Positions 6,005-22,110 of a stretch of 64,000 nt of DNA are shown piece by piece. Position 1 is the stretch's first letter, and each line of letters opens with the position of its first letter. This stretch comes from Cobetia amphilecti (GTDB lineage Bacteria; Pseudomonadota; Gammaproteobacteria; Pseudomonadales; Halomonadaceae): the NCBI RefSeq assembly GCF_020217465.1, contig NZ_CP084115.1:1426001-1490000 (forward strand), given 5' to 3'. Under the pieces are notes generated by a model. That model saw only the letters and a list, made by a program, of their open reading frames with translations. It did not search any database and was not told the DNA's origin. Position numbers and translations under genes: made by a program.

Positions 6005-7153
6005 ATGGTCACGACTGCTGAGCCCGACGCGCCGCAGGAGACCAGCTCCTGCTTCGCGATCTTCAATGATGTGCAAAAGAGCTATGACGGCGAAACGCTG
6101 GTGGTCAAGGGCTTCAATCTTGAAGTCCAGCGCGGCGAGTTCGTCACCCTGCTGGGACCGTCCGGTTCCGGCAAGACCACCTGCCTGATGATGATGGCAG
6201 GCTTCGAAACGCCGACCCACGGCGACATCCTCCTCGACGGTACCCCCATCAATGACTTGCCACCGCACAAGCGCGGCATCGGCATGGTCTTCCAGAACTA
6301 TGCACTGTTTCCGCACATGAGCGTGGCCGAGAACCTGGCCTTCCCATTGGAAGTGCGCGGCATGAGCAAGGAGGAGATCTCGACCAAGGTGGCCAACGCG
6401 CTGGACATGGTGCGACTCGGCGAATTCGGCGATCGCCGTCCGGGGCAGCTCTCCGGCGGGCAGCAACAGCGGGTCGCCCTGGCACGTGCGCTGGTCTTCG
6501 AGCCGGAGCTGGTGCTGATGGATGAACCGCTGGGGGCGCTGGACAAGAACCTGCGCGAGGAGATGCAGTTCGAGATCAAGCGCATCCACCAGCGCCTCGG
6601 CGTCACCATGCTCTATGTGACCCATGATCAGACGGAAGCGCTGACCATGTCGGACCGCATCGCGGTCTTCAATGACGGCATCGTCCAGCAGCTGGCAACC
6701 CCCGAGGCGCTGTATGAAGCGCCGGAGAATGCCTTCGTCGCCTATTTCATCGGCGAGAACAATCGCCTCAACGGCCAGGTATCGCAGCTTGACGCTCAGG
6801 GGGAGCATTGCACGGTGACCCTCGACAGCGGCGAGCAGGTACGGGCACTCAAGGTGGCCGTCAATGAGGTCGGCGAGCGCACCCAGCTGTCACTGCGCCC
6901 GGAGCGGGTACGCCTGCTGTCGGCGGAAGAGCCAGGCGCCGCGGGCACGCAAAGCCCTCCCGACAATGTCTTCTCCGCCGAGGTGCTCGAGGTGATCTAT
7001 CTTGGAGATCATCTGCGCACGCGCGTGGCGGTGTGTGGCAGTGACGAATTCATCATCAAGACACCCAACGCCGAGGGTTATCCGCCCTTGCGGCCCGGGC
7101 AGACATTGCAGGTCGGATGGGACGCCTGCGACTGCCGGGCGCTGGATGCCTGA
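6005..7153 (+). CDS. PotA-like ABC importer ATPase (polyamine type)
   Basis: A 382-residue cytosolic ATPase of the spermidine/putrescine (PotA) group. Walker A GPSGSGKTT near residue 56, Q-loop VFQNYALFPHMSV, signature LSGGQQQR, Walker B VLMDEPLGALD and H-loop YVTHDQTEA are all intact. A TOBE-type regulatory region fills residues 275-382. It is the first gene of a four-gene set with a binding protein and two permeases, so it energises that importer as a homodimer. No strong SD is seen before the ATG (only GGAT at about 11 nt), which could fit translational control at the A-rich element. The exact substrate is unproven. Confidence 0.88.
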   Translation: MVTTAEPDAPQETSSCFAIFNDVQKSYDGETLVVKGFNLEVQRGEFVTLLGPSGSGKTTCLMMMAGFETPTHGDILLDGTPINDLPPHKRGIGMVFQNYALFPHMSVAENLAFPLEVRGMSKEEISTKVANALDMVRLGEFGDRRPGQLSGGQQQRVALARALVFEPELVLMDEPLGALDKNLREEMQFEIKRIHQRLGVTMLYVTHDQTEALTMSDRIAVFNDGIVQQLATPEALYEAPENAFVAYFIGENNRLNGQVSQLDAQGEHCTVTLDSGEQVRALKVAVNEVGERTQLSLRPERVRLLSAEEPGAAGTQSPPDNVFSAEVLEVIYLGDHLRTRVAVCGSDEFIIKTPNAEGYPPLRPGQTLQVGWDACDCRALDA

Positions 7154-7286
7154 GGCCAGCAAAGGTCAGAACAGGCCAGCAAAGAACAGGCGAGAAAGGA
7201 CAGGCGAGTAAAGACAAGGCAGCACGGGAGGTGAAGCACGCTTCCTCAGCAGAGCAAGAGCAGATTTCGCGACAAGAGTGCAGCAC

Positions 7287-7298
7287 AACAACAAGAAA
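7287..7298 (+). promoter_or_regulatory. A-rich AACAACAAGAAA element before binding-protein gene
   Basis: It lies 17-28 nt upstream of the ATG at 7315 and just before GGGAG. It matches AANAANAA and could let an Hfq/Crc-like complex block ribosome access. Confidence 0.45.
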
Positions 7299-7314
7299 TC
7301 AGGGAGATTCATCC

Positions 7315-8451
7315 ATGTCAGTCATCAATCAGTTCACCGCGTCATTCACTACCTCGCGCCCGGGCATGCCGCTGCGCAGCCTGCTGGCGGTTGCCGTGGC
7401 AGCGGCCGGCATGAGCGCCGGAGCGGCCCAGGCCGAGACGCTCAATATCGTCTCGTGGGGCGGCGCCTATACCGACAGCCAGAACAAGGCCTATCACGAG
7501 CCCTGGGAAGAGAAGAGCGGCGACACCGTCGTCAATATCGACAAGTCATCCAATGCGCTGTCCGGTCTGCGCGCACAGGTCCAGGCCGGCAACGTCACCT
7601 GGGACCTGGTCGACATGCTGCCCAGTGATGCCTTGATCGCCTGTTCGGAAGGCCTGATCGAGCCGCTGGACCCGGACACCCTGTTCGCGGCAGCGCCGGA
7701 TGGCACGCCGGCCAGCGAGGACTTCATCGAGAATTCGCTCAGCGAGTGCTTCGTGCCGCAGATCGTCTACTCCAACATCGTGGCCTTCAATACCGAGATG
7801 TTCCCCGAGGACAAGCAGCCGGATTCCATCGATGACGTCTTCAATCTCGAGGAATTCCCCGGCAAGCGTGCGCTGCAGAAGAAGCCGATCAACAACATGG
7901 AGTGGGCGCTGGTAGCCGATGGCGTGGCCCCGGAAGATGTCTACGAGATGCTGGATTCCGAGGAAGGCATCGAACGTGCCTTCGCCAAGCTCGATACCAT
8001 CAAGGACAGCGTGATCTGGTGGGAAGAGGGCGCACAGCCGCCGCAGCTGCTGGCGGACAAGGAAGTGGCCTTCGCCTCGGCCTACAACGGACGCATCTTC
8101 GATGCCGAGGTCAACGAGAAGCAGCCATTCTCCATCGTCTGGGATGCCCAGGTCTTCGAGCTGGATGGCTGGGTCGTCCCGACCGGCAAGCTCGACAAGG
8201 TCAAGGATTACCTGATGTTCGCCACCGATACCCAGCGACTGGCGGATCAGGCCAAGTACATCTCCTACGGGCCGGCGCGTACCTCCTCCGCGGCACTGGT
8301 CTCGACCCATGCGGACACCGGCATCGACATGAAGCCGCACATGCCCACCTATGGCCCCAACTTCGAGACCGCCATCCCCAAGGATGACGAATTCTGGGCC
8401 GACAACCTCGATGAGCTGAGCCAGCGCTTCAACGCCTGGCTGGCACGCTGA
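7315..8451 (+). CDS. Periplasmic polyamine-type solute-binding protein (PotD-like)
   Basis: 378 residues with a long signal peptide: a charged start, a hydrophobic stretch around residues 22-38, and probable cleavage after AAQA before ETLNIVSWGG, the typical opening of PotD-like proteins. It captures the ligand in the periplasm and delivers it to the permeases encoded downstream. The ATG at 7315 has GGGAG 8 nt upstream; a longer frame from 7117 overlaps the ATPase gene end and lacks a site. A hairpin with five T residues follows, which may lower permease expression relative to this protein. Family knowledge gives putrescine/spermidine-like cations; other amines are possible. Confidence 0.88.
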   Translation: MSVINQFTASFTTSRPGMPLRSLLAVAVAAAGMSAGAAQAETLNIVSWGGAYTDSQNKAYHEPWEEKSGDTVVNIDKSSNALSGLRAQVQAGNVTWDLVDMLPSDALIACSEGLIEPLDPDTLFAAAPDGTPASEDFIENSLSECFVPQIVYSNIVAFNTEMFPEDKQPDSIDDVFNLEEFPGKRALQKKPINNMEWALVADGVAPEDVYEMLDSEEGIERAFAKLDTIKDSVIWWEEGAQPPQLLADKEVAFASAYNGRIFDAEVNEKQPFSIVWDAQVFELDGWVVPTGKLDKVKDYLMFATDTQRLADQAKYISYGPARTSSAALVSTHADTGIDMKPHMPTYGPNFETAIPKDDEFWADNLDELSQRFNAWLAR

Positions 8452-8469
8452 CCCCTGCACTGACCCGCT

Positions 8470-8507
8470 GGCCCCGGTGGCGCACACCCGCGCGCCGGGG
8501 CCTTTTT
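8470..8507 (+). terminator. Internal terminator/attenuator after binding-protein gene
   Basis: GGCCCCGG (8470-8477) and CCGGGGCC (8495-8502) form a stem followed by TTTTT. Placed inside the operon, it probably gives more binding protein than permease. Confidence 0.75.
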
Positions 8508-8625
8508 GATCATGCCTGATGGCCCGTCGGCCATGCTCGATTCCGCCAGGTTGGCTTCCGTCACTGTCACGCGGAAGCCGGCTGGCGGCCCAGGCATCCT
8601 CGGATAGCCGATCAAGGAGTGCAGG

Positions 8626-9927
8626 ATGAGCGATTCCTCCGCCCCGGCCACGTCCGGAAGCGCAGCACATGACCCCACTGGCGCCCCCGGCGCGGCGCTG
8701 ACCACCGCCGATGGCGTACCGCTGAAACAGAGCCTCAATCGCGCCATCCGTCGCAGTCGCATCAAGGCGTTGCTGCTGGTGGCGCCGTTGCTGGTCTTCA
8801 TCGGGCTGGCATTCGTCATGCCCATCTTCGACATGCTGTCACGCAGTGTCGACAACCCGGAAGTCTCCACCTATCTACCGCGCACCAGCGAGGTGCTGGT
8901 CGACTGGGACGGCGAAGGGTTGCCGGAAGAGGCCGCCTACGCCGCCCTGGCGCAGGATCTGGCCGCGGGACTCAAGGCGCGCAATCTCGGGCGCGTCGCC
9001 TCGCGTCTCAACTACGAAAAGTCCGGCATGCGGTCGCTGTTCATGAAGAGCGCCCGCCGTGCCGGTCGCATGGAGGCCCCTTACAAGGCCGCGCTGATCA
9101 AGGCCGATGAGGATTGGGAGGACCCGGATATCTGGCGTCTGATCAAACGCGAATCGTCGCCTCTCACCGCTTCCTACTATCTGGCGGCGGTGGATCGCCA
9201 GTTCTCACCGACAGGCGAGATCGTCGAGAAACCGGAGTATCTGCAGATCCACGTCTCGCTGTTCATCCGCACCTTCTGGATGAGCGCGGCGATCACCGGG
9301 CTGTGTCTGTTGCTGGCCTATCCGGTGGCCTGGCTGCTGGCGACCCTGCCAGCCAGTCGCGGCAATCTGCTGATGATTCTGGTGCTGCTGCCGTTCTGGA
9401 CCTCGCTGCTGGTGCGAACCACCACCTGGATCGCGATCCTGCAGCAGCAGGGGGTGCTCAATGACATGCTGGTGGGCGTCGGGATACTCGCCGAGGAGGC
9501 GCGTATCCAGATGATCTACAACAAGACCGGCACCATCATCGCGATGACCCACATCCTGCTGCCGTTCATGATCCTGCCGCTGTACTCGGTGATGAAGACC
9601 ATCCCGCCCAGCTACATGCATGCGGCGCGCTCGCTGGGTGCCGGGCCGATAACCGCCTTCCGGCGTGTCTACTTCCCGCAGACCTTGCCGGGCATCGGGG
9701 CGGGCTCGATTCTGGTCTTCATCCTCTCCATCGGCTACTACATCACGCCGGCACTGGTGGGCGGGCAGTCGGGCCGCTTCATCACCAACTTCATCGCCTA
9801 TCACATGCAGACCTCGCTCAACTGGGGCCTGGCAGCGGCCATTGGCTCGATACTGCTGGTCGTGGTGATCCTCTTCTATCTCGTCTACAACCGCCTGATC
9901 GGTGTGGACAAGGTCAAACTGGGGTGA
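8626..9927 (+). CDS. PotB-like ABC permease with large periplasmic insert
   Basis: 433 residues. After an Ala/Ser/Pro-rich N-terminal tail of about 45 residues comes one membrane segment (about 48-68), then a hydrophilic stretch of some 135 residues before the remaining five membrane helices. E. coli PotB is only about 275 residues and lacks this insert. The cytosolic EAA loop is seen as HAARSLGAGPITAFRRVYFP, which couples to the ATPase. GGAG stands before the ATG (AAGGAGTGCAGG region). It forms the transmembrane pore with the next gene product, which starts 4 bp after its stop. Confidence 0.85.
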   Translation: MSDSSAPATSGSAAHDPTGAPGAALTTADGVPLKQSLNRAIRRSRIKALLLVAPLLVFIGLAFVMPIFDMLSRSVDNPEVSTYLPRTSEVLVDWDGEGLPEEAAYAALAQDLAAGLKARNLGRVASRLNYEKSGMRSLFMKSARRAGRMEAPYKAALIKADEDWEDPDIWRLIKRESSPLTASYYLAAVDRQFSPTGEIVEKPEYLQIHVSLFIRTFWMSAAITGLCLLLAYPVAWLLATLPASRGNLLMILVLLPFWTSLLVRTTTWIAILQQQGVLNDMLVGVGILAEEARIQMIYNKTGTIIAMTHILLPFMILPLYSVMKTIPPSYMHAARSLGAGPITAFRRVYFPQTLPGIGAGSILVFILSIGYYITPALVGGQSGRFITNFIAYHMQTSLNWGLAAAIGSILLVVVILFYLVYNRLIGVDKVKLG

Positions 9928-9930
9928 CAG

Positions 9931-10782
9931 ATGGCCATACCTTCCTATGCAACTCGTGGTGAGCGGATCTGGCATTGGGTGTTCTGCGTGCTGTGCACGC
10001 TGATCTTCCTGTTCCTGATCGGGCCGATCCTGGTGATCATTCCGCTCTCGTTCAATGCCGAACCCTACTTCACCTTCTCGGAGAAGATGCTGTCGCTGGA
10101 CCCGGAGGGCTACTCGCTGCGCTGGTATCAGGAGTTCTTCACCTCGGATGAGTGGATGCGCTCGATCAAGAACAGCATCATCGTGGCGGTGTGCGCGACG
10201 GTGCTGGCCACGGTACTGGGCACGCTTGCCGCACTGGGGCTTTCCAGCCGTTTCATGCCGTTTCGCAATACCATCATGGCGATCCTGATCTCGCCGATGA
10301 TCGTGCCGCTGATCATCAGCGCCGCGGCGATGTTCTTCTTCTTCTCGAAACTGGGGCTGACCCAGACCTATCTGGGCGTGATTCTGGCGCACACGGCGCT
10401 GGGCATTCCCTTCGTGGTGATCACGGTGACGGCGACGCTGTCCGGCTTCGATCACTCGCTGACACGTGCGGCGCACTCGCTGGGGGCCAGTCCGAGTCGC
10501 ACCTTCTTCCGCATCATCCTGCCGCTGGTGACGCCGGGGGTGGTGTCCGGTGCGCTGTTCGCCTTCATCACCTCGTTCGATGAAGTCGTGGTGGTGCTGT
10601 TCATCGCCGGGCCGGCGCAGACCACCATCCCGATCCAGATGTGGTCCGGTATCCGCGAGGAGATCAGCCCGACGATTCTGGCGGTGGCCACGCTGCTGGT
10701 GATGGTCTCGATCCTGCTGCTGACGACACTGGAGCTGATTCGCCGCCGCAATGAACGTCTGCGCGGCCTGACGCCGAGCTGA
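9931..10782 (+). CDS. PotC-like ABC permease
   Basis: 283 residues, six predicted membrane helices and a clear EAA loop (TRAAHSLGASPSRTFFRIIL). It pairs with the preceding PotB-like subunit. The 3-bp gap between the two genes implies translational coupling. A perfect 21-bp hairpin after the stop ends the operon and also faces the convergent regulator gene. The length fits PotC. It belongs to the inner-membrane part of the polyamine-type importer. Confidence 0.9.
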   Translation: MAIPSYATRGERIWHWVFCVLCTLIFLFLIGPILVIIPLSFNAEPYFTFSEKMLSLDPEGYSLRWYQEFFTSDEWMRSIKNSIIVAVCATVLATVLGTLAALGLSSRFMPFRNTIMAILISPMIVPLIISAAAMFFFFSKLGLTQTYLGVILAHTALGIPFVVITVTATLSGFDHSLTRAAHSLGASPSRTFFRIILPLVTPGVVSGALFAFITSFDEVVVVLFIAGPAQTTIPIQMWSGIREEISPTILAVATLLVMVSILLLTTLELIRRRNERLRGLTPS

Positions 10783-10962: not shown

Positions 10963-13071
10963 TCAGGCCGCGCCGAGTCGCTTGTAGAGCGTGGTGCGGC
11001 TGATGCCCAGCTCCCGCGCGAGACGCGAGACGTTGCCGCCCAGCGCGTCCAGCGCACTCTGCAGCTCCTCGGCACTGGAGAGATCATGCAGCGAGGGCAG
11101 GCCGCTCGGTTGCGAGGGCTGGTGGGCAATCTCGCCCTCTGCCGCGTGGCAGTCGCCCGCCAGCATCACATGGCACGGCTCCAGGGTCGGCCCATCGCAC
11201 AGTGCCAGCGCCAGACGCAGCACGTTGTCCAGCTCGCGCACGTTGCCGGGCCAGTCATGCTGGGTGAGGCGATCGAGGAAGGCGGGCGTGATGCGCGGCA
11301 GCTCACGTTGCTGCTCCCCGCACAGCCGTGTCAGCAGGGCACGACTCAGTCCGGCGATGTCGTGACGCTCCCTCAGCGGCGGCAGGGCGATGGTGGCCCC
11401 ACACAGGCGATAGTAGAGATCCGCCCGGAAGCGCCCGGCCTTGACCAGCTCGCTGAGGGGCTGATGGGTGGCGGCGACCAGTTCGAAATCGACCCGCTGC
11501 GGCTTGCCGCCGCCCAGCGGGGTGACTTCACGCTCCTGCAGCACGCGTAGCAGACGCGCCTGCACATGCAGTGGCATGTCGCCGATCTCATCCAGAAACA
11601 GGCGCCCGCCATTGGCCTCGAGCAGGCGGCCTTCGCGTCCGGCGGGGTCGGCACCGGTAAAGGCGCCGCGCCGATAGCCGAACAGCTCGGCCTCGACCAG
11701 CTCATCAGGCAAGGCGGCGCAGTTGATGGCGACCAGCGGCTGATGGGCGCGATGACTGGCCTGATGCAGCGCCTTGACCACTTCCTCCTTGCCGACGCCG
11801 GTCTCGCCCTGCAGCAGTAGTGGCAGGCGGGCGTTCACCAGCCGCGCCAGCAGTTCGCAGACTCTGGCCCAGCCGGCATCGCCATGATGCAGGCGCGCGA
11901 GGCTCGGGTGGCACGCAGTCTCTCGAGTGGCGACTTCGGCCGGTGGCTGGCTTGCGGAGCGCTCGGCCGGCGCACGGGCCACGACCCGTGGCCTGGGCGG
12001 GGCTGCACACAGGGTGTAGCCCGTGAAGCGCGGGTGTTGTGTGAGCATCAGGCACTGCGCATTGGCGAGCTGGGCCAGCGGCGCCCAGTCCAGCTGCCAG
12101 CGTGCCAGCGGCTGGCCCAGCAGCAGGTGGATGTCATCGCGGGTGGCGCAGCTGTCGCTGTCCGCTGCATTGGCTGCGCTGTCCGTTGCGTTGGCTGCGT
12201 TTTCGGAAGCGGGCGTGAGTTCAAGATGAGCCGCCAGCAGCTGCAGTCCCCGGCGACTGGCGGCAGCGACCTGACCTTGCGGCGTGACGGCCAGCAGGGC
12301 CGCACTGGGCGAGTCCAGCTGCGAGCGGTTGAGATGCAGGCGCAACAGGTGATGGTCGTGCCCATGCGCCTCGCCCAGACGGCGTTGCTCGATGTCATCC
12401 GCCAGTACGCCGAGCATGCCGAGGCTGTACTGGCGCACACGGTAGGGATCGCAGATCAGTCCCAGGCACCCCTCGCAGGCGCCGGGCGTCAGGCCTCGAT
12501 TGGCACTCCAGCTGGCGGGTGCCAGCAGCGCGGCACTGGCACTGGCCAGCCCCTTGAGGCATTCGGCGTCATGCGCTTCGAGCGCGATGCGCGCCAGGCG
12601 ATTGGCACGCGGTGCATTCAGGGTCTCGGCGATGGCGTTGTGACCCAGCGACTCCTCACGCCAGCGCGCGCCGGGGTGCAACAGGGGGGCGTCATTGCCC
12701 AGCAGCTGTTGATGGCCGTAGCTTGCCAGCACCACGCCGTCGCGGTCGGTCAGCACCAGACACGCCTGCCAGTGATCGAGCAGGTTGAGGGTATGGCCGG
12801 CCACCGCTGACGCCACCGTCGCCATCAGGTTGGCGGCCTGACGCTGACGCCAGACGAGCTCCTCCGGCGGACACCTGAGGGTTGAGGGCGGCAGCGACGA
12901 GGGGAAAGAAGAGGGAAGAGAAGAGGAGGGAGCAGGTGGAAGCGCCGCCGCAGACGTTGCGCAGGCGGCGCTTGGATCGAGCGCCTGATCCTCTGCGTGG
13001 TGAGCTGGATGCTTGGCCGAATGATGAGCAGCGTGGCGCGCTGAGTGTTTGGCGGCGTGGGGTAGTGGCAT
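10963..13071 (-). CDS. AcoR-type sigma-54-dependent transcriptional activator with His-rich N-terminus
   Basis: 702 residues. The order is a His/Ala-rich tail (about residues 5-27, eight His), a Ser/Pro linker, a GAF-like sensor with REESLGHNAIAET (about 70-230), a linker, then the AAA+ domain: Walker A GETGVGKEE near 420, the sigma-54 contact loop GAFTGA near 468, and Walker B LFLDEIGD near 490. A Fis-type HTH (NVSRLARELGISRTTLYKRL) is at the end. AAGGGA precedes the ATG, so the His-rich start looks real. It is divergent from the glp-like operon, whose leader has a sigma-54 promoter match and TGTTCA repeats, so it very likely activates that operon in response to a small ligand. The ligand is unknown. 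Confidence 0.9.
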   Translation of the reverse strand: MPLPHAAKHSARHAAHHSAKHPAHHAEDQALDPSAACATSAAALPPAPSSSLPSSFPSSLPPSTLRCPPEELVWRQRQAANLMATVASAVAGHTLNLLDHWQACLVLTDRDGVVLASYGHQQLLGNDAPLLHPGARWREESLGHNAIAETLNAPRANRLARIALEAHDAECLKGLASASAALLAPASWSANRGLTPGACEGCLGLICDPYRVRQYSLGMLGVLADDIEQRRLGEAHGHDHHLLRLHLNRSQLDSPSAALLAVTPQGQVAAASRRGLQLLAAHLELTPASENAANATDSAANAADSDSCATRDDIHLLLGQPLARWQLDWAPLAQLANAQCLMLTQHPRFTGYTLCAAPPRPRVVARAPAERSASQPPAEVATRETACHPSLARLHHGDAGWARVCELLARLVNARLPLLLQGETGVGKEEVVKALHQASHRAHQPLVAINCAALPDELVEAELFGYRRGAFTGADPAGREGRLLEANGGRLFLDEIGDMPLHVQARLLRVLQEREVTPLGGGKPQRVDFELVAATHQPLSELVKAGRFRADLYYRLCGATIALPPLRERHDIAGLSRALLTRLCGEQQRELPRITPAFLDRLTQHDWPGNVRELDNVLRLALALCDGPTLEPCHVMLAGDCHAAEGEIAHQPSQPSGLPSLHDLSSAEELQSALDALGGNVSRLARELGISRTTLYKRLGAA

Positions 13072-13382: not shown

Positions 13383-13397
13383 TGGCACAGGGTTCGC
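13383..13397 (+). promoter_or_regulatory. Sigma-54 (-24/-12) promoter
   Basis: TGGCACAGGGTTCGC keeps the invariant GG-N10-GC spacing (GG 13384-13385, GC 13396-13397) and the full TGGCAC box; the -12 box is TCGC instead of TTGC. It would start transcription near 13408, some 78 nt before the first gene of the glp-like operon. A sigma-54 activator gene is divergent. Confidence 0.65.
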
Positions 13398-13485: not shown

Positions 13486-14640
13486 ATGTCCTTGAGCCTT
13501 GAGGCGGTCACCCGCCGGGTTGGCCGCGAGACCCATATCGACAGGGTGGACCTGACCTTCGAGCCCGGCTCCTTCAATGTGCTGCTGGGACGCACCCTGT
13601 CCGGCAAGACGTCGCTGATGCGCCTGATGGCGGGTCTCGATGTGCCCAGTGACGGGCGCATCGTGATGAACGGCGAGGACGTGACCGGCCGTCCAGTGCG
13701 CGAGCGCAACATCTCGATGGTCTATCAGCAGTTCATCAACTACCCGAGCCTGAGCGTCTACGACAACATCGCCTCGCCGCTGAAGCTGGCGCGCATGGCG
13801 CCGGAGGAAATCCGCCGCCGCGTGCACGAGATCGCCGAGATGCTGCATATCGAGCAGTTTCTTGCGCGTCAGCCGGCGGAGTTGTCCGGTGGCCAGCAGC
13901 AGCGCACGGCCATGGCGCGGGCGCTGGTCAAGGACGCCGACCTGGTGCTGTTCGATGAACCGCTGGTCAATCTCGACTACAAGCTGCGCGAAGAACTGCG
14001 CCACGAGATGCGCAGCCTGTTCGCGACCCGCAACACCATTGCCGTCTACGCCACCACCGAGCCCGGCGAGGCGCTGGCACTCGGCGGCACCACCACCCTG
14101 ATGCATGAAGGGCGGGTGCTGCAGTCCGGGCCTACCGAGGCCGTCTACCATCATCCACTGAGTGTCGAGGCGGCGAAGCTCTACTCCGAGCCGCAGATCA
14201 ATCTGTTCGAGGCCGAGGTGCGCGGACGTGAGCTGGCGTTCTCCGGCGCGGCCAGTGCCGGCGAGCAGGGCAGCCGTTTCGTGCTGCCCACGCCACTGGC
14301 GGGGATCGAGAGCGGGGCCTACCGCTTCGGCATCCGCCCCAGCCATCTGGGGCTGGCACCTCTGGCCGATGATGATCTGGAGTTCGCCGTCACGGTGGAT
14401 ATCGCCGAGATCTCCGGCTCCGAGACCTTCCTGCATGTCAGCAATGACGATCACTCGCTGGTCCTGCATCTGGCCGGCATCCACGACTTCGCCGTGGATG
14501 ATGCCATCCGCGTCTATGCCCCCGCCCACAAGCTGTTCGTCTATGCCGCCGATGGTGGTGACGGGGCGGAACAGCATGGCGATGGGGCACTGATCCGCTC
14601 GCCCGAGCGACCCACCACGACTGGCGGAGGGCTGGCCTGA
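13486..14640 (+). CDS. glpS: GlpS-like ABC importer ATPase (lacks H-loop histidine)
   Basis: 384 residues, first gene of the operon. Walker A is GRTLSGKT (35-42), Q-loop near 81, signature LSGGQ (133-137) and Walker B LVLFDEP (153-159), all usable. The switch histidine of the H-loop is replaced: where family members read YVTHDQ it has YATTEP (Thr191). A TOBE-like end follows. The partner ATPase has the reverse defect (poor signature, good H-loop). In Rhizobium leguminosarum GlpS/GlpT power a glycerol importer. ATG 13486 begins the conserved region; longer GTG starts lack an SD. Its stop overlaps the next start by one base. Confidence 0.85.
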   Translation: MSLSLEAVTRRVGRETHIDRVDLTFEPGSFNVLLGRTLSGKTSLMRLMAGLDVPSDGRIVMNGEDVTGRPVRERNISMVYQQFINYPSLSVYDNIASPLKLARMAPEEIRRRVHEIAEMLHIEQFLARQPAELSGGQQQRTAMARALVKDADLVLFDEPLVNLDYKLREELRHEMRSLFATRNTIAVYATTEPGEALALGGTTTLMHEGRVLQSGPTEAVYHHPLSVEAAKLYSEPQINLFEAEVRGRELAFSGAASAGEQGSRFVLPTPLAGIESGAYRFGIRPSHLGLAPLADDDLEFAVTVDIAEISGSETFLHVSNDDHSLVLHLAGIHDFAVDDAIRVYAPAHKLFVYAADGGDGAEQHGDGALIRSPERPTTTGGGLA

Positions 14641-15877
14641 TGGCGGAAATACACCTCAATGATCTGGCGCACAGCTACCTGGCGGCGCCCACCGCGGACA
14701 GTGATTACGCCATCCGGCGCATGAATCATGTCTGGCAGCAGGGCGGCGCCTATGCACTGCTCGGCCCGTCGGGGTGTGGCAAGAGCACGCTGCTCAACAT
14801 CATCTCCGGGCTGCTGGCCCCCTCCGAGGGCGAGGTGCGCTTCGATGATCGCGTGGTCAATCGGCTGCCGCCGGAAGAGCGCAACATTGCCCAGGTTTTC
14901 CAGTTCCCGGTGGTCTACGACACCATGACGGTCTTCGACAATCTGGCCTTTCCGCTGCGCAATCAGCGCCAGCCGGAGCACAAGGTGCAGTCCCGGGTGC
15001 GTGAGATCGCCCAGGTGCTGGAGCTGGAAGACCTGCTGACTCGGCGTGCCAGCAACCTGACGGCCGACGAGAAGCAGAAGGTCTCGATGGGCCGTGGCCT
15101 GGTGCGCGATGACGTGGCCGCCATCCTGTTCGATGAACCGCTGACGGTCATCGACCCCCACCTCAAGTGGAAGCTGCGCCGCAAGCTCAAGCAGATCCAC
15201 GAGCAGTTCAACATCACCATGGTCTACGTCACCCATGATCAGCTGGAGGCCTCGACCTTCGCCGACAAGATCGCGGTGATGTACGAGGGCCGCATCGTGC
15301 AGTTCGGCACCCCGCGCGAGCTGTTCGAGGACCCCGCTCACACCTTCGTGGGCTACTTCATCGGCTCACCGGGCATGAACCTGGCCAGCATCACGCTGGA
15401 ATCGCAGGGCGTGCGGCTCGGCACGGGGGAGGATGCACCCTTGCTGCATCTTCCACGAGCGCTGCTAGCGACACTGGCGGAGCGCAAGGGCGAGTTGAAA
15501 CTGGGCATTCGCCCCGAATTCGTCGAGCTCGAGGCCAGCGACAGCTCATCAGCGGCGGCGGTTCCCGACACCCGCGAGCATTGGCTGAGTGGTCAGGTCA
15601 CGCTGGTGCAGGACCTGGGGACCTACAAGGTGGTGGATCTCGACATCGGTGGCGGCTGCCTGTTCAAGGCGCGCATCGAGGAAGATGCGCTGCTGCCGAC
15701 AGGCCGCGTGCGTCTGCGCCTGCCGGCCCGCTGGCAGCGCTTCTATCTCGATGAGCACCTGCTGGACCTGTCACAGGCCGGCGCGCCCGACAGTGGCGAG
15801 GCGGACAGCTTTGCCAGAGGGGAGAGTGGCGGCCCTGTCAGAGGGGAAGATGACCAGCGGCCGGGAGGAAACGCCTG

Positions 15878-15878
<1 letters not shown>
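14640..15878 (+). CDS. glpT: GlpT-like ABC importer ATPase (degenerate signature motif)
   Basis: 412 residues. Walker A GPSGCGKST (42-50), Walker B ILFDEP (162-167) and H-loop YVTHDQ (His199) are intact, but the ABC signature reads LTADEKQK (140-147) in place of LSGGQ. Paired with GlpS this leaves one canonical ATP site (GlpT Walker motifs and His with GlpS LSGGQ) and one degenerate site. The symbol follows the rhizobial glycerol importer and is unrelated to the E. coli glycerol-3-phosphate antiporter GlpT. The C-terminal 130 residues are TOBE-like, with an acidic tail. TGATG overlaps join it to both neighbours. Confidence 0.85.
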
Positions 15879-16747
<869 letters not shown>

Positions 16748-16758
16748 GGAGACGAGTG

Positions 16759-17559
16759 ATGACCACACGCAAGCGTCTGGTAATGACGATCTATCTGCTG
16801 TTCCTGCTGGTGCCGATCTACTGGCTGCTGATCATGTCCTTCAAGTCGAATCAGGAGATTCTCGGCGGCCTGACCCTGTGGCCCGAGAACTTCACCTTCG
16901 ACAACTATCGGGTGATCTTCACCGACCCCAGCTGGTACATGGGCTACCTCAACTCGATGAGCTACGTGGTGCTCAACATGCTCATCTCGCTGGCGGTGGC
17001 GCTGCCGGCGGCCTATGCCTTCTCGCGCTATCGCTTCCTGGGCGACAAGCATCTGTTCTTCTGGCTGCTGACCAATCGCATGGCGCCGCCGGCGGTCTTC
17101 CTGCTGCCGTTCTTCCAGCTCTATTCCTCGGTGGGGCTGTTCGATACCCCGCTGGCGGTGGCACTCGCGCACTGTCTGTTCAACGTGCCGCTGGCGGTCT
17201 GGATTCTGGAAGGCTTCATGTCCGGCGTACCCAAGGAGATCGATGAGACGGCCTATATCGACGGCTACAGCTTCCCGCGCTTCTTCCTGACGCTGTTCAT
17301 TCCGATGATTCGCCCGGGAATCGGGGTGACCGCCTTCTTCTGCTTCATGTTCTCGTGGGTGGAGCTGTTGCTGGCGCGAACCCTGACCTCGACGGAGGCG
17401 AAACCGATAGCGGCGGTGATGACGCGAACGGTCTCGGCCTCGGGCATCGACTGGGGCGTGCTGGCCGCCGCCGGTGCCCTGACGCTGATTCCCGGCATTC
17501 TGGTGATCTACTTCGTGCGCAACCATGTCGCCAAGGGCTTCGCCCTGGGCCGGGTGTGA
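16759..17559 (+). CDS. glpQ: GlpQ-like ABC permease
   Basis: 266 residues, six predicted helices, of the MalG/UgpE side of the carbohydrate permease family. The EAA loop DETAYIDGYSFPRFFLTLFI is clear. TGAGGAG stands 7 nt before ATG 16759; a GTG three bases earlier is possible but less well spaced. The symbol follows the rhizobial operon, not the E. coli phosphodiesterase GlpQ. It works as heterodimer with GlpP in the inner membrane. Confidence 0.87.
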   Translation: MTTRKRLVMTIYLLFLLVPIYWLLIMSFKSNQEILGGLTLWPENFTFDNYRVIFTDPSWYMGYLNSMSYVVLNMLISLAVALPAAYAFSRYRFLGDKHLFFWLLTNRMAPPAVFLLPFFQLYSSVGLFDTPLAVALAHCLFNVPLAVWILEGFMSGVPKEIDETAYIDGYSFPRFFLTLFIPMIRPGIGVTAFFCFMFSWVELLLARTLTSTEAKPIAAVMTRTVSASGIDWGVLAAAGALTLIPGILVIYFVRNHVAKGFALGRV

Positions 17560-17632
17560 TCGTCACCAGGCCGAGCGCCGCTGTCATTGCCGTCAGCAAG
17601 TCTCTGCTGGCGGCCCACAAGAGGACATGATG

Positions 17633-17905
17633 ATGGAATGGATGGCCTGGACACTGCCCACGTCACTCTTCTTTGCCGGTATCGGCACCCTGCTGCTGGG
17701 CATGACCGCCTGGCAGTTCGTGACCCCGACGCTGAGTCGGCAGGGATTTCTGCCCATCGCGACCACGCGGGGCGACAGACTGTTCATCGGCCTGCTCTCC
17801 AGCGGCTGGCTGCATCTGCTGTGGTTGGGCTTTACCGATCAGGTGCTGTGGATGATCAGCATCGTGTGTGTCGTCTGGATGCTGGTGTTGATGAAGTGGG
17901 GATGA
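17633..17905 (+). CDS. glpU: DUF2160 small membrane protein (GlpU-like)
   Basis: About 90 residues with three hydrophobic segments (roughly 9-28, 47-62 and 66-85) separated by short polar turns. DUF2160 proteins accompany the GlpSTPQ-V importers, where this gene is called glpU; the molecular role is unknown. Three in-frame ATGs follow each other at 17627, 17630 and 17633; AGAGGA ends at 17625, so the third gives the best spacing. The last codons contain a short direct repeat GATGAAGTGGG that continues just past the stop. Confidence 0.82.
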   Translation: MEWMAWTLPTSLFFAGIGTLLLGMTAWQFVTPTLSRQGFLPIATTRGDRLFIGLLSSGWLHLLWLGFTDQVLWMISIVCVVWMLVLMKWG

Positions 17906-18061
17906 AGTGGGGATGACATGCGGGGAGATGTGAAGAGGAGAGAGCGCTGACGACAGGCAGCGTCGCCCGGTGGCAACACGGAACCGGACAGCCTGAGGGG
18001 AGTCCCAAGCGGTTCTGACTGGCATCCGCCAGTGTCATTCGCCGCTCTGGAATCTCGTTGC

Positions 18062-20128
18062 ATGTCGTCATCTCGTTCACCGCATCGCTCGTCTACAGGT
18101 AGTGCTTCAAAGGGTGCTTCACATGGCGCTTCACGTGGCGACTCTCCCTCGCCGGGCCGCAAGAACCGCCGTCGTCTCTGGGCGGGCGTGACAGGGCTGA
18201 GCATTGCCTGCGTTGTCGCCCTCGGCTGGTGGGCCGGTACACCGCTCGACAACCCGGACGCCGCGACGCCTGATCAGCAGGTCGGGGATGGCGAAACGGA
18301 AGATGCAGGGCAATCAACATTGTGGCAGCAGTATCAGCGCGTGTGGCAGGCCAATCAGACCCGCTCACCCAAGGCGCGCAAGCCACTGCCACTGCCAGAC
18401 GTTTCCCGCGCCGGCTACCACCAGGGCGAGGCACTGCCGGCGCTTGAGCTCGAGTCCCGTGACGAGGGTGAAGCGGCAGGAAAGGGCGAGGCAGAAAAGG
18501 GCACGGCAGGTGAGAGCGCAAAGGGCGTGCTGCGCCGGTTCGATGTCACGGCCTACGGCGCGGATGGTAGTGACACCCTGAGTGATCGCCGCGCCATTCT
18601 CGAGGCGCATGCCGCCATGCGTGACTGGCAGCGCCAGGGCAGTGATGACGCTGACCGCCCGGCGCGCCGCGGCGTGCTCTATTTCCCGGCGGGGGATTAC
18701 GTGGTGTATGGTGCGGCCGAGCGCGACTGGTTTCACTCCCGCCTGGTGGCACTGAAAGCCGCGGTGGCGGACGCAGAACACCAGCAGGCGCTGCGCGAGG
18801 CATTGCTCAAGATGCAGGGTTTGAGTCTGGCAGGCAGTCATTGGACCTTGATGGGCGCGGGCAGTGATGTCACGCACCTCAAGCAGACCCGGCCGATGCT
18901 GCCGTTGCACGCCAGCTGGTACTGGAGCACTCCCTGGCTGCTGCATCTGGGCAATCTGGCCGAGGGGGGCAAGCAGGAAGAATGGCAAGCCGTCACACCG
19001 ACGAGACACCGGCAGCCGGCGGATACGCAGGACACGATCACGCTGGCGGATGAGGCGGGTCAGTCGGATGAGACAGATGGCGCAGCGCTCTCGCCAGGCG
19101 ATGAGGTGCTGCTGGAGAGCATCGACAAGCGGCCTGAGTCAGTGGCGCGTGCCCTGGCCCCCTATCAGATGGAAAAGGACGCCAGCACCGGCGAGTCACG
19201 CTGGTTGATCGAGCGTGACGGAGTGATCAAGCGGGCGCGCTATCGCGTGGTGGCACGTGACGGCAAGCGCCTCACGCTCTCGCTGCCGGTGGTGCATGAG
19301 CGCTTTCCCGGCGAGCAGTGGCGCATCGCACGCCTGCACCCGGCGCGGGAAGTCGGGGTGCAGGGCATCACGCTCAAGGGCAACTGGCGGGGGCACTTCA
19401 AGCATCACCGCAGTGCCGAGGATGACAGCGGCTTCGGCCTTCTGGACCTGGATGGCATCACGGATGGCTGGGTACGTGACGTGCGGCTCGACAGTTTCAA
19501 TCAGGGGGTGAAGGTGCGCCACAGCTCACAGCTGACACTCGAAGACGTGACGATGACCGGCAAGCCCGGGCATATCGCGATGACGATCAGTGACAGCAAT
19601 CAGGTACTGGCCCGCCAGGTAGTCGACCAAAGTCATGCCTGGCATGCGCCCGGGGTGGCCCGCTACGCGACCCATAACGTCTACCTTGAACTGGAGCACG
19701 CCGGTGACAGTGGTATCGAGCTGCATGGTCAGCAATCGCGCGACAACGTGTTCGATCGCAAGCGTGGCGGTCATGTGCGTGACCGCTGGGGCGCCAGTGT
19801 CGGCCATCAGCCCAATCATCTGCGCGGGCTGGTGCTGTGGAATCCGGTCAATACCGGCAAGCCGCATGCTGCCTGGCCCTTCATGCGCGCCGACTCCCAC
19901 TTCGGCAAGGTGATCATGCCGACGGTCGTCGGGGCGACCGGGCATGCGCTGGGCATCGCCAACCGCCATGACTATGCCCGAGTGATGAATGCCAAGGGCG
20001 TGACCGAGTATGACCCCTTGCCGCCGATGGATGCCTTGCAGGCACGCGTCGAGTCGCCGGGCGAGGCCGTGGAGCCCGCCTCGCTCTACCGCGCCCAGCG
20101 CGAGCTGCTGCAGGAGACGCGAGAGTGA
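18062..20128 (+). CDS. Membrane-anchored right-handed beta-helix protein in the glp-like operon
   Basis: 688 residues. A basic, Ser-rich N-terminus leads into one hydrophobic segment (about residues 39-56) without a clear cleavage site, so the large domain is probably periplasmic and anchored. Residues 150-260 resemble the start of pectate-lyase-like helices (FDVTAYGADGSDTLSDRRAI, YFPAGDYVVYG). The C-terminal half has repeated short strands (DGITDGWVRDV, SQLTLEDVTMTG, HNVYLELEHAGDSGIELHG) and PNHLRGLVLWNP, reminiscent of DUF4955 proteins. Such folds bind or cleave acidic polysaccharides, but I see no family-specific catalytic set. No strong SD precedes ATG 18062 (GTG 18032 is the alternative). 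It is not part of known glp operons. Confidence 0.75.
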   Translation: MSSSRSPHRSSTGSASKGASHGASRGDSPSPGRKNRRRLWAGVTGLSIACVVALGWWAGTPLDNPDAATPDQQVGDGETEDAGQSTLWQQYQRVWQANQTRSPKARKPLPLPDVSRAGYHQGEALPALELESRDEGEAAGKGEAEKGTAGESAKGVLRRFDVTAYGADGSDTLSDRRAILEAHAAMRDWQRQGSDDADRPARRGVLYFPAGDYVVYGAAERDWFHSRLVALKAAVADAEHQQALREALLKMQGLSLAGSHWTLMGAGSDVTHLKQTRPMLPLHASWYWSTPWLLHLGNLAEGGKQEEWQAVTPTRHRQPADTQDTITLADEAGQSDETDGAALSPGDEVLLESIDKRPESVARALAPYQMEKDASTGESRWLIERDGVIKRARYRVVARDGKRLTLSLPVVHERFPGEQWRIARLHPAREVGVQGITLKGNWRGHFKHHRSAEDDSGFGLLDLDGITDGWVRDVRLDSFNQGVKVRHSSQLTLEDVTMTGKPGHIAMTISDSNQVLARQVVDQSHAWHAPGVARYATHNVYLELEHAGDSGIELHGQQSRDNVFDRKRGGHVRDRWGASVGHQPNHLRGLVLWNPVNTGKPHAAWPFMRADSHFGKVIMPTVVGATGHALGIANRHDYARVMNAKGVTEYDPLPPMDALQARVESPGEAVEPASLYRAQRELLQETRE

Positions 20129-20367
20129 CAGCAAGCCGCTGAGTATCAGTGCATCAGGGCATCAGCGCAGCAGAGCAATCAGGTCAGCAAGGACAACAGA
20201 GCAGCAAGAACAACAGAGCAGCAGCCAACGACAGCCGATCGCAACGGCAGGAGGACGAGCAGCACCGAGAGCAAGCAAGGCGGCGAATCGCGCCGCGCGA
20301 CACGTGATTGACGGAAGTGGTTGTTGGAAGACGCGACACAACAATAACGCCAATGAAGGGACATCCC
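20129..20367 (+). promoter_or_regulatory. Leader before glpV with A-rich repeats and an AACAATAA element
   Basis: 239 bp rich in CAGCAG/AACAACAGAGCAGCA repeats (20155-20235). AACAATAA at 20340-20347, 21-28 nt before the ATG, fits the AANAANAA motif; a second match (AAGAACAA) is near 20207. Extra regulation or a secondary promoter for the binding protein is plausible. Confidence 0.4.
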
Positions 20368-22110
20368 ATGAGTCAGCACATCATTCGACCCGCACGCCTG
20401 CGTTACGCCATCGCCTTCGCCACGGCGGCGGGGCTTGCCGGCCTTTCCAGTCAGGCCATGGCCGATCAGTATCAGGATGCGGCAAGGAAGTGGATCGATC
20501 AGGAGTTCTCACCCTCCACGCTGAGCAAGGACGAGCAGATGTCCGAGCTCGAATGGTTCATCAAGGCCGCTGAACCGCTGCGCGGCATGGAAATCAAGGT
20601 GGCCTCGGAAACCCTGACCACCCATGAATACGAGTCCAAGGTGCTGGCCAAGGCCTTCAGCGAGATCACCGGCATCAAGCTGACCCACGACTTGATCCAG
20701 GAAGGCGACGTCATCGAGAAACTGCAGACCCAGATGCAGTCCGGGCGCAATATCTACGATGGCTACGTCAACGACTCCGACCTGATCGGCACGCACTTCC
20801 GCTATGGCAAGGTCGTGCCGATCAGCGACATGATGGAAGGCGACGGCAAGGCCTTCACCTCGCCGACGCTGGATCTGGACGACTTCATCGGGCTGGATTT
20901 CACCACCGGCCCGGATGACAAGCTCTATCAGCTGCCGGACCAGCAGTTCGCCAACCTCTACTGGTTCCGTGCCGACTGGTTCGAGCGCGAAGATTTGAAG
21001 AAGCAGTTCAAGGACAAGTACGGCTACGAGCTGGGGGTGCCGGTCAACTGGTCGGCCTATGAGGACATCGCCGACTTCTTCACCAATGACGTCAAGGAAA
21101 TCGACGGTGAGCGGGTCTACGGCCACATGGATTACGGCAAGAAGGACCCGTCACTTGGCTGGCGCTTCACCGATGCCTGGTTCTCGATGGCGGGTGCCGG
21201 CGACAAGGGCCTGCCCAACGGCCTGCCGGTGGACGAGTGGGGCATTCGTGTCGAGGAATGTCAGCCGGTGGGCTCCTCGGTGACACGTGGCGGCGCGGCC
21301 AACGGCCCGGCGGCCGTCTATGCCACCACCAAGTATGTCGACTGGCTGGGCAAGTACGCACCGCCGGAAGCCCAGGGCATGACCTTCTCCGAGTCCGGTC
21401 CGGTGCCGTCCCAGGGCAACATCGCCCAGCAGATCTTCTGGTACACCGCCTTCACCGCCGACATGACGCGGGATGGCCTGCCGGTGGTCAACGACGATGG
21501 CACCCCGAAGTGGCGCATGGCGCCGTCGCCGCATGGCCCGTACTGGGAAGAGGGCATGAAGCTTGGCTATCAGGACGTGGGCGCCTGGACCTTCTTCGAT
21601 TCCACGCCGGAGAAGAATCGTCACGCGGCCTGGCTGTACGCGCAGTTCGTCACCGCCAAGACCGTCTCGCTCAAGAAGACCCTGGAAGGGCTGACGCCGA
21701 TCCGCGAGTCGGATATCCAGTCCCAGGCGATGACCGATGCCGCGCCGAAGCTGGGCGGTCTGGTCGAGTTCTATCGCAGCCCGGCGCGGGTGCAGTGGTC
21801 GCCGACCGGGACCAACGTGCCGGATTACCCGAAGCTCGCCCAGCTGTGGTGGCAGTACATCTCCCAGGCCGCCAGCGGCGAAGCCACGCCGCAGGAAGCC
21901 CTCGATGGTCTGGCCAAGGCGCAGGACCGCATTCTCGAGCGTCTCGAGCGCGCCAAGGTGATGGACAACTGTGGGCCGAAGCTCAACGAGGAGCGTGATG
22001 CGGAGTACTGGTTCGCCCAGCCGGGTGCGCCGAAGGCCAAGCTGGACAACGAGAAGCCCAAGGGCGAGACCATCGCCTACGACGAGCTGCTCAAGAGCTG
22101 GAAGGAGTAA
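20368..22110 (+). CDS. glpV: GlpV-like periplasmic solute-binding protein
   Basis: 580 residues, long for a binding protein but usual for this family. A signal peptide with basic start (RPARLR), hydrophobic core and cleavage after SQAMA before DQYQDAARKW is clear. The conserved start of the mature part (AARKWIDQEFSPSTLSKDEQM) and a late segment with WSPTGTNVPDYPKLAQLWWQ match the rhizobial glycerol-binding protein group as I know it. AAGGGA precedes ATG 20368. It is the last gene of the operon, followed by a strong terminator. A glycerol or similar polyol ligand is inferred; the extra beta-helix gene upstream leaves room for a larger saccharide. Confidence 0.85.
   Translation: MSQHIIRPARLRYAIAFATAAGLAGLSSQAMADQYQDAARKWIDQEFSPSTLSKDEQMSELEWFIKAAEPLRGMEIKVASETLTTHEYESKVLAKAFSEITGIKLTHDLIQEGDVIEKLQTQMQSGRNIYDGYVNDSDLIGTHFRYGKVVPISDMMEGDGKAFTSPTLDLDDFIGLDFTTGPDDKLYQLPDQQFANLYWFRADWFEREDLKKQFKDKYGYELGVPVNWSAYEDIADFFTNDVKEIDGERVYGHMDYGKKDPSLGWRFTDAWFSMAGAGDKGLPNGLPVDEWGIRVEECQPVGSSVTRGGAANGPAAVYATTKYVDWLGKYAPPEAQGMTFSESGPVPSQGNIAQQIFWYTAFTADMTRDGLPVVNDDGTPKWRMAPSPHGPYWEEGMKLGYQDVGAWTFFDSTPEKNRHAAWLYAQFVTAKTVSLKKTLEGLTPIRESDIQSQAMTDAAPKLGGLVEFYRSPARVQWSPTGTNVPDYPKLAQLWWQYISQAASGEATPQEALDGLAKAQDRILERLERAKVMDNCGPKLNEERDAEYWFAQPGAPKAKLDNEKPKGETIAYDELLKSWKE

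Follow-up and report, generated by a model that had tools for sequence, protein, structure and literature searches.

The two ATPases encoded side by side by glpS and glpT of Cobetia amphilecti carry complementary losses of ATP-site motifs. GlpS retains the signature LSGGQ and lacks the H-loop histidine while GlpT retains the histidine and lacks the SGG of the signature, and an identical lost and kept pattern was found in 85 of 85 homologous pairs. Judging from the sequences, GlpS and GlpT probably form an obligatory heterodimer, which would drive a MalK-type (CUT1) glycerol importer with unequal ATP sites at the cost of one ATP per cycle. The genes lie in a stretch of 64,000 nucleotides, the window hereafter, whose features are collected in Table 1. 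The residues and coordinates named in a preliminary description of this DNA (LSGGQ and Thr191 of GlpS, His199 and LTADE of GlpT) are exact on the translation.

Table 1. Genes and motifs of the glp cluster and its neighbourhood; conservation refers to the 85 homologous pairs.
Feature	Position	Strand	Basis or conservation
Second ABC import cassette	6107-10782	+	ABC domain PF00005 match at 6107-6532
Divergent sigma-54 activator gene, upstream of glpS	10963-13071	-	
Sigma-54-like site, candidate	13383-13397	+	TGGCACAGGGTTCGC
glpS, MalK-type ATPase, 384 aa, LSGGQ kept, H-loop His lost	13486-14640	+	translation; Pfam ABC_tran, TOBE_2
GlpS A-loop position, Val12 for Tyr	13519-13521	+	Val 79/85, Tyr 0/85
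GlpS Walker A GRTLSGKT	13588-13611	+	fourth-residue Gly absent 80/85; GKT invariant
GlpS Q-loop Gln81	13726-13728	+	invariant
GlpS signature LSGGQ, residues 133-137, part of complete site	13882-13896	+	invariant
GlpS Walker B Asp157-Glu158	13954-13959	+	both invariant
GlpS H-loop Thr191 for His	14056-14058	+	Thr 80, Ser 5 of 85
glpT, MalK-type ATPase, 412 aa, H-loop His kept, signature degenerate	14640-15878	+	translation; Pfam ABC_tran, OB_MalK, TOBE_2
GlpT A-loop Tyr13	14676-14678	+	invariant
GlpT Walker A GPSGCGKS, canonical	14763-14786	+	
GlpT degenerate signature LTADE, residues 140-144	15057-15071	+	SGG 0/85; Asp at fourth position 84/85
GlpT Walker B Asp165-Glu166	15132-15137	+	both invariant
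GlpT D-loop TVID(P)	15144-15155	+	TVIDP 85/85; SNLD in 36 single-ATPase relatives
GlpT H-loop His199	15234-15236	+	invariant
glpP, permease	15878-16747	+	BPD_transp_1
glpQ, permease	16756-17559	+	BPD_transp_1
DUF2160 small membrane protein, cluster marker gene, start codon inferred	17627-17905	+	PF09928
698-aa beta-helix type ORF, between DUF2160 gene and glpV	18032-20128	+	
glpV, solute-binding protein, start inferred (ORF opens at 20308)	20368-22110	+	SBP_bac_8

The GlpSTPQV-type gene set is complete in the window, with two ATPases, two permeases, the DUF2160 protein and the solute-binding protein, and the start codon of glpT overlaps the stop codon of glpS by one base (TGATG). By relation, the cluster is of the known glycerol ABC importer type, and we infer glycerol as the probable substrate from the Rhizobium system. 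Glycerol uptake by a GlpSTPQ(U)V-type ABC system has been described in R. leguminosarum VF39, while deletion of a Cupriavidus relative does not stop growth on glycerol (both from PMC7912956); glpSTPQV is also listed in a Halomonas genome (PMC4597393). The pRL9 pair of R. johnstonii 3841 is 47% (GlpS) and 55% (GlpT) identical to that of the window over the BLAST alignment, and the gene order is the same, the cluster lying there between glpD and glpK. Its GlpS has YATTEP as in the window and its GlpT signature reads LTADQ. The window differs from the Rhizobium cluster by the upstream divergent sigma-54-type activator, the internal 698-aa ORF and a glycerol kinase gene located elsewhere.

A search for DUF2160 (PF09928) was positive in 85 of 398 Pseudomonadota genomes, that of the window included, and the 85 pairs comprise the window and 84 loci around a full DUF2160 match. 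GlpS and GlpT were recognised from their proximity to the DUF2160 gene and their BLAST score over the whole protein, independently of any motif. Each of the 84 loci contains one GlpS and one GlpT, and the six glp genes are co-directional in all of them. The homologues are 42% to 68% (GlpS) and 49% to 70% (GlpT) identical to those of the window. The count leaves out six loci whose DUF2160 match is weaker, since in place of GlpS and GlpT they encode only one ATPase, which is fully canonical. A search independent of DUF2160, with GlpT of Nonomuraea as query, likewise returned 85 of the 398 genomes, and the two lists of genomes agree when compared by eye.

Besides the signature and the H-loop, the 85 pairs agree in what the degenerate site has kept, namely the Walker A Lys, Walker B Asp, Q-loop Gln and catalytic Glu of GlpS (85/85); the catalytic Glu is present in GlpT of every pair as well. 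Thr191 of GlpS lies within YATTEP, the corresponding stretch of canonical relatives being YVTHDQ or the like, and the A-loop Tyr is present in the eight single-ATPase sequences aligned with GlpS and GlpT. A scan of named genomes covered the best 80 of at least 586 relatives, which are close ones with 64-69% identity. All 79 complete pairs have Thr and LSGGQ in GlpS together with His and either LTADE (73) or LSADE (6) in GlpT, the 80th relative (L149) being outside the pair count as its stretch begins too near glpT to contain glpS. The pair of Nonomuraea (Actinomycetota), the sole pair read from outside Pseudomonadota, keeps LSGGQ and His but carries Ala at the H-loop position (YSTADP) and a signature that reads LDAGR, i.e., the same asymmetry with different substitute residues. 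Intermediates with one loss alone were absent from the 85 pairs, the 79 named pairs and the Nonomuraea and Pleomorphomonas pairs. The earlier proposition of complementary losses is borne out at the sequence level, as the pattern is fixed among the homologues and random loss was seen in 0/85 and 0/79 pairs. Chance or a sequencing slip as the source of the losses is ruled out by the conservation in 85/85. Plasmid searches covered 40 of 262, 25 of 1808 and 60 of 275 records, of which six were examined, so that sampling beyond Pseudomonadota is sparse; the weak GlpS-like plasmid matches with annotation turned out to be single-ATPase systems.

A composite ATP site consists of the A-loop, Walker A and B, Q-loop and H-loop of one subunit and the signature of the other (PMC7756269 and PMC7544095). 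In all 85 pairs one such site is complete and the other carries losses from both subunits, and since the losses of GlpS and GlpT are complementary and fixed, only the GlpS–GlpT heterodimer can build a complete site. At the sequence level, the proposed division into one full and one broken site thus stands; the account was incomplete in leaving unnamed the losses in the A-loop, Walker A and D-loop, all of which map to the composite site formed by the Walker motifs of GlpS and the signature of GlpT. Compared over the same 21 positions, the variation amounts to 2.75 bits in the complete site and 8.31 bits in the degenerate one. Overall, GlpS varies more than GlpT (median column entropy 0.92 versus 0.58). 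This could account for some of the Walker A difference, but not for that in the signature, which runs the opposite way with 0 bits for LSGGQ of GlpS and 3.92 bits for GlpT.

Five loci (L059, L062, L063, L067 and L080) differ together in four degenerate-site elements located on both subunits. In this lineage GlpS has the Walker A motif GxTGxGKT, with the Gly present, the Q-loop LVHQFF and Ser in the H-loop, and the signature of GlpT reads LSPDN; Walker A of GlpT stays GPSGCGK[ST], and LSGGQ of GlpS and His of GlpT are invariant. The co-change was probably one event, as the three loci present in the tree (see below) group together in both halves, and the lineage represents a possible alternative design of the degenerate site.

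The predicted model of GlpS (mean pLDDT 81.7) has its best structural match in MalK (2r6g, TMq 0.83 over 383 columns); that of GlpT, with a shallow alignment, has a mean pLDDT of 54. The MalK-type architecture of an ABC domain followed by a C-terminal TOBE/OB domain was found in both proteins, with TOBE_2 in both and OB_MalK in GlpT, and UgpC is the best NCBIfam match of either one, below the cut-off. The 60 best solved chains listed per protein include none under the name of a glycerol-importer ATPase, and those at the top are of MalK type. MalK is a homodimer with two identical sites. GlpST resembles MalFGK2 and the UgpC-type CUT1 systems in fold and family, but those have one ATPase gene whereas two were found in 84 of 84 glp loci, neither of them with all motifs, which does not agree with a single homodimeric ATPase.

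The heterodimer is favoured because either homodimer would be without a complete site while the heterodimer has one. In the proposed mechanism, the A-loop, Walker A and B, Q-loop and His199 of GlpT would face LSGGQ of GlpS at site 1, which is predicted to be complete and to hydrolyse ATP. At site 2, Walker A and B and the Q-loop of GlpS, without the A-loop Tyr and the H-loop His, would face LTADE and the altered D-loop of GlpT. Binding of ATP at site 2 is probably preserved, given that the Lys of Walker A, the Asp of Walker B, the Gln of the Q-loop and the catalytic Glu are all intact there. Site 2 would hold Mg-ATP via Lys, Asp and Gln with little or no hydrolysis and may serve as an ATP-bound hinge or clamp; the catalytic Glu kept in both subunits makes slow hydrolysis at site 2 possible. 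Such a clamp, hydrolysing little or nothing, would lead to one ATP per cycle. The combination of one hydrolysing and one ATP-holding site is suggested by the geometry of composite sites and by work on exporters indicating that a single hydrolysis may be enough to reset the cycle (PMC7756565). We infer the heterodimer, the binding of ATP with lost hydrolysis at site 2 and the cost of one ATP per glycerol each from the sequences. One mutated MalK reportedly cripples transport by MalFGK2, and hence one-site operation is not automatic in the MalK fold.

Alternatively, both sites might hydrolyse, with LTADx and Thr191 as lineage-specific substitutes and two ATP spent as in maltose transport. The invariance of Glu158, Lys, Asp and Gln at site 2 (85/85) agrees with such an arrangement, and so does the Asp at the fourth signature position, which in 84/85 looks like a specific replacement rather than drift. 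Nevertheless, SGG and His are both gone, always on one composite site, the A-loop Tyr of that site is missing in 85/85 and the Walker A Gly in 80/85, and we regard hydrolysis at both sites as unlikely. In addition, the acidic residue that replaces the second signature Gly corresponds to CFTR G551D, reportedly a gating defect, though this argument is not general because the Nonomuraea signature LDAGR keeps that Gly. The degenerate site could also be an unused relic, lost by neutral drift and kept because the machine tolerates it. This reading overlaps with the preferred one in having one catalytic site and differs only on whether site 2 has a job. The higher variability of the degenerate-site positions, part of which may reflect the overall variability of GlpS, is what a relic would display; its nucleotide-binding residues are invariant, however, and TVIDP of the GlpT D-loop (85/85) and the Asp of LTADx (84/85) point to a constrained rather than a decaying site, so that a site without any function seems improbable.

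That GlpS and GlpT are no partners at all, each instead forming its own homodimer or joining some other cellular ATPase in the manner of MsmX, appears very improbable. ATPases of MsmX type are shared between transporters, and the nearest relatives linked to DUF2160 (L115 to L120) do use one canonical ATPase; but each homodimer would carry two defective sites, and glpS and glpT are present in one cluster in 84 of 84 loci.

The history of the pair was approached by a tree of 75 rows, in which 24 GlpS and 24 GlpT represent every fourth locus plus the window, L301 and L307. A branch of full SH-aLRT support sets off GlpS from all other rows, and another does so for GlpT; their stems are about 2.2 and 2.5 changes per column long, respectively. 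As each forms one clade with a long stem, the asymmetry probably predates their spread. The deep forks are weak and the branches long, leaving the relations of GlpS, GlpT and UgpC to one another without resolution, and an origin of GlpS and GlpT by duplication and subsequent split is unsupported. All 36 single ATPases compared (30 UgpC-like ones and those of the six weak-DUF2160 loci) keep both motifs. In the six loci (L115 to L120), related permeases, a binding protein, one canonical ATPase and a weakly scoring DUF2160 match make up a second transporter, a single-ATPase relative of the Glp system. These loci were considered as early Glp forms and rejected, being single canonical UgpC-like ATPase systems.

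The preliminary description implied that such asymmetry is rare among importers. This did not hold, as three further importers of the same genome share the topology, which is conserved in two of those families as sampled. The survey comprised 70 ABC domains (PF00005) of this genome with both motifs readable, GlpS and GlpT included; domains in which a motif could not be aligned, weak matches that were not retrieved and duplicates of identical sequence lay outside the set. Of the 70, 59 keep both SGG and His. Eight of the 11 exceptions form four pairs, namely GlpS/GlpT, the halves of an RbsA-type protein, LivF/LivG and a LivFG/Urt-like pair (one member of which matches UrtD below the cut-off, the other having no match at the limit used), and in all four one partner keeps SGG without His and the other the reverse. 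Three exceptions stand outside these pairs, namely a type I secretion ATPase, an SmdB-like exporter, whose SmdA-like partner has Asp at the position of the catalytic Glu, and an unnamed ATPase. Two different ATPases alone do not imply asymmetry, since both halves are canonical in five other two-ATPase sets recognised by eye (L217, L230, L262, L270 and L291, with L287 duplicating L217).

LivFG and RbsA were followed in further genomes. From 60 genomes, 30 LivFG loci were returned, the own genome included and one locus being without LivF; LivG keeps His and lacks SGG in 30/30, and LivF keeps SGG and lacks His in 29/29. The topology is that of GlpST, and both partners retain Glu in the pair of the own genome. 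The family is a different one; the second Gly is present in the signatures of LivG (mostly LxYGx), and Walker A of own-genome LivF is intact. RbsA-type (CUT2) proteins also share the topology with GlpST, but with the two halves in one chain. A sample of 60 genomes returned 23 loci, own included, three of which were dropped for having no full-length match, and in 20/20 full-length chains the N-half has His without SGG while the C-half has LSGGN without His. The C-half keeps the Walker A Lys in 2/20 and has lost Glu in 4/20, the latter speaking against a strict rule of Glu retention in importers. If two losses are placed at random among four elements, one site escapes in two of the six possible combinations (1 in 3); one family alone proves little for that reason, whereas three separate families would coincide in about 1 in 27. 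The GlpS/GlpT asymmetry appears real, yet less exceptional than it first looked.

ABC transporters with one degenerate site are known, and what may be called new is the MalK-type version with Glu kept. The exporters ABCB11, Pdr5, TM287/288 and TmrAB likewise combine one complete and one degenerate site, with losses from both NBDs. The usual hallmark of degenerate exporter sites is the loss of the Walker B Glu (PMC7544095), whereas GlpST belongs to another transporter class and the Glu of GlpS is present in 85/85. GlpST would accordingly be expected to work like a degenerate-site transporter, yet not one of the exporter type. E. coli DppBCDF is, like GlpST, an importer with two different ATPases, and both DppD and DppF hydrolyse ATP in its authors' model (PMC12136057). 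None of the literature matches listed deals, by title or the start of the abstract, with the ATP sites of GlpST or LivFG.

We tentatively suggest, as an idea about as open to doubt as to belief and leaning to the former, that MalK-type GlpST, RbsA-type proteins and LivFG have converged on one ATPase without the H-loop His and a partner without SGG, with Glu usually kept, one hydrolysing and one ATP-holding site, and one ATP per substrate. Because the same losses recur in three importer families, a testable rule can be stated, by which asymmetric importers lose the H-loop His and SGG and mostly keep Glu while exporters lose Glu. Whether import costs one or two ATP per substrate has been debated mostly for MalK-type homodimers, in which the sites are equal. 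GlpST, if the above is true, would be a half-engine importer of MalK fold, directly comparable with the two-site maltose transporter; as it combines the MalK fold with a natural asymmetry, site-specific mutants would be readable without mixed dimers.

The surroundings of the cluster offer some further observations. The 698-aa ORF matches the BT_3328 hyaluronan-lyase family below the cut-off, as well as DUF4955. No homologue of it was found by BLAST (E 1e-5) in 164 other glp loci or the six weak loci, and across 145 genomes of the order it was seen in its own genome and as one partial 29% match (E 1e-20) only. The sigma-54-like site lies ~90 bases upstream of glpS, beside the divergent activator gene; its pattern has one match in the window against a chance mean of 0.71, i.e., no excess over chance, and the position alone makes the candidate suggestive. 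Directly upstream of the regulator, the second ABC import cassette appears to contain a binding protein and two permeases, assigned by appearance only. Glycerol kinase has one match over the cut-off in the own genome, outside the glp cluster. It is found together with two MIP-family (aquaglyceroporin-type) genes at 2860620-2863745 (L339, L341 and L342), far from the window, which suggests a second route for glycerol in this organism.
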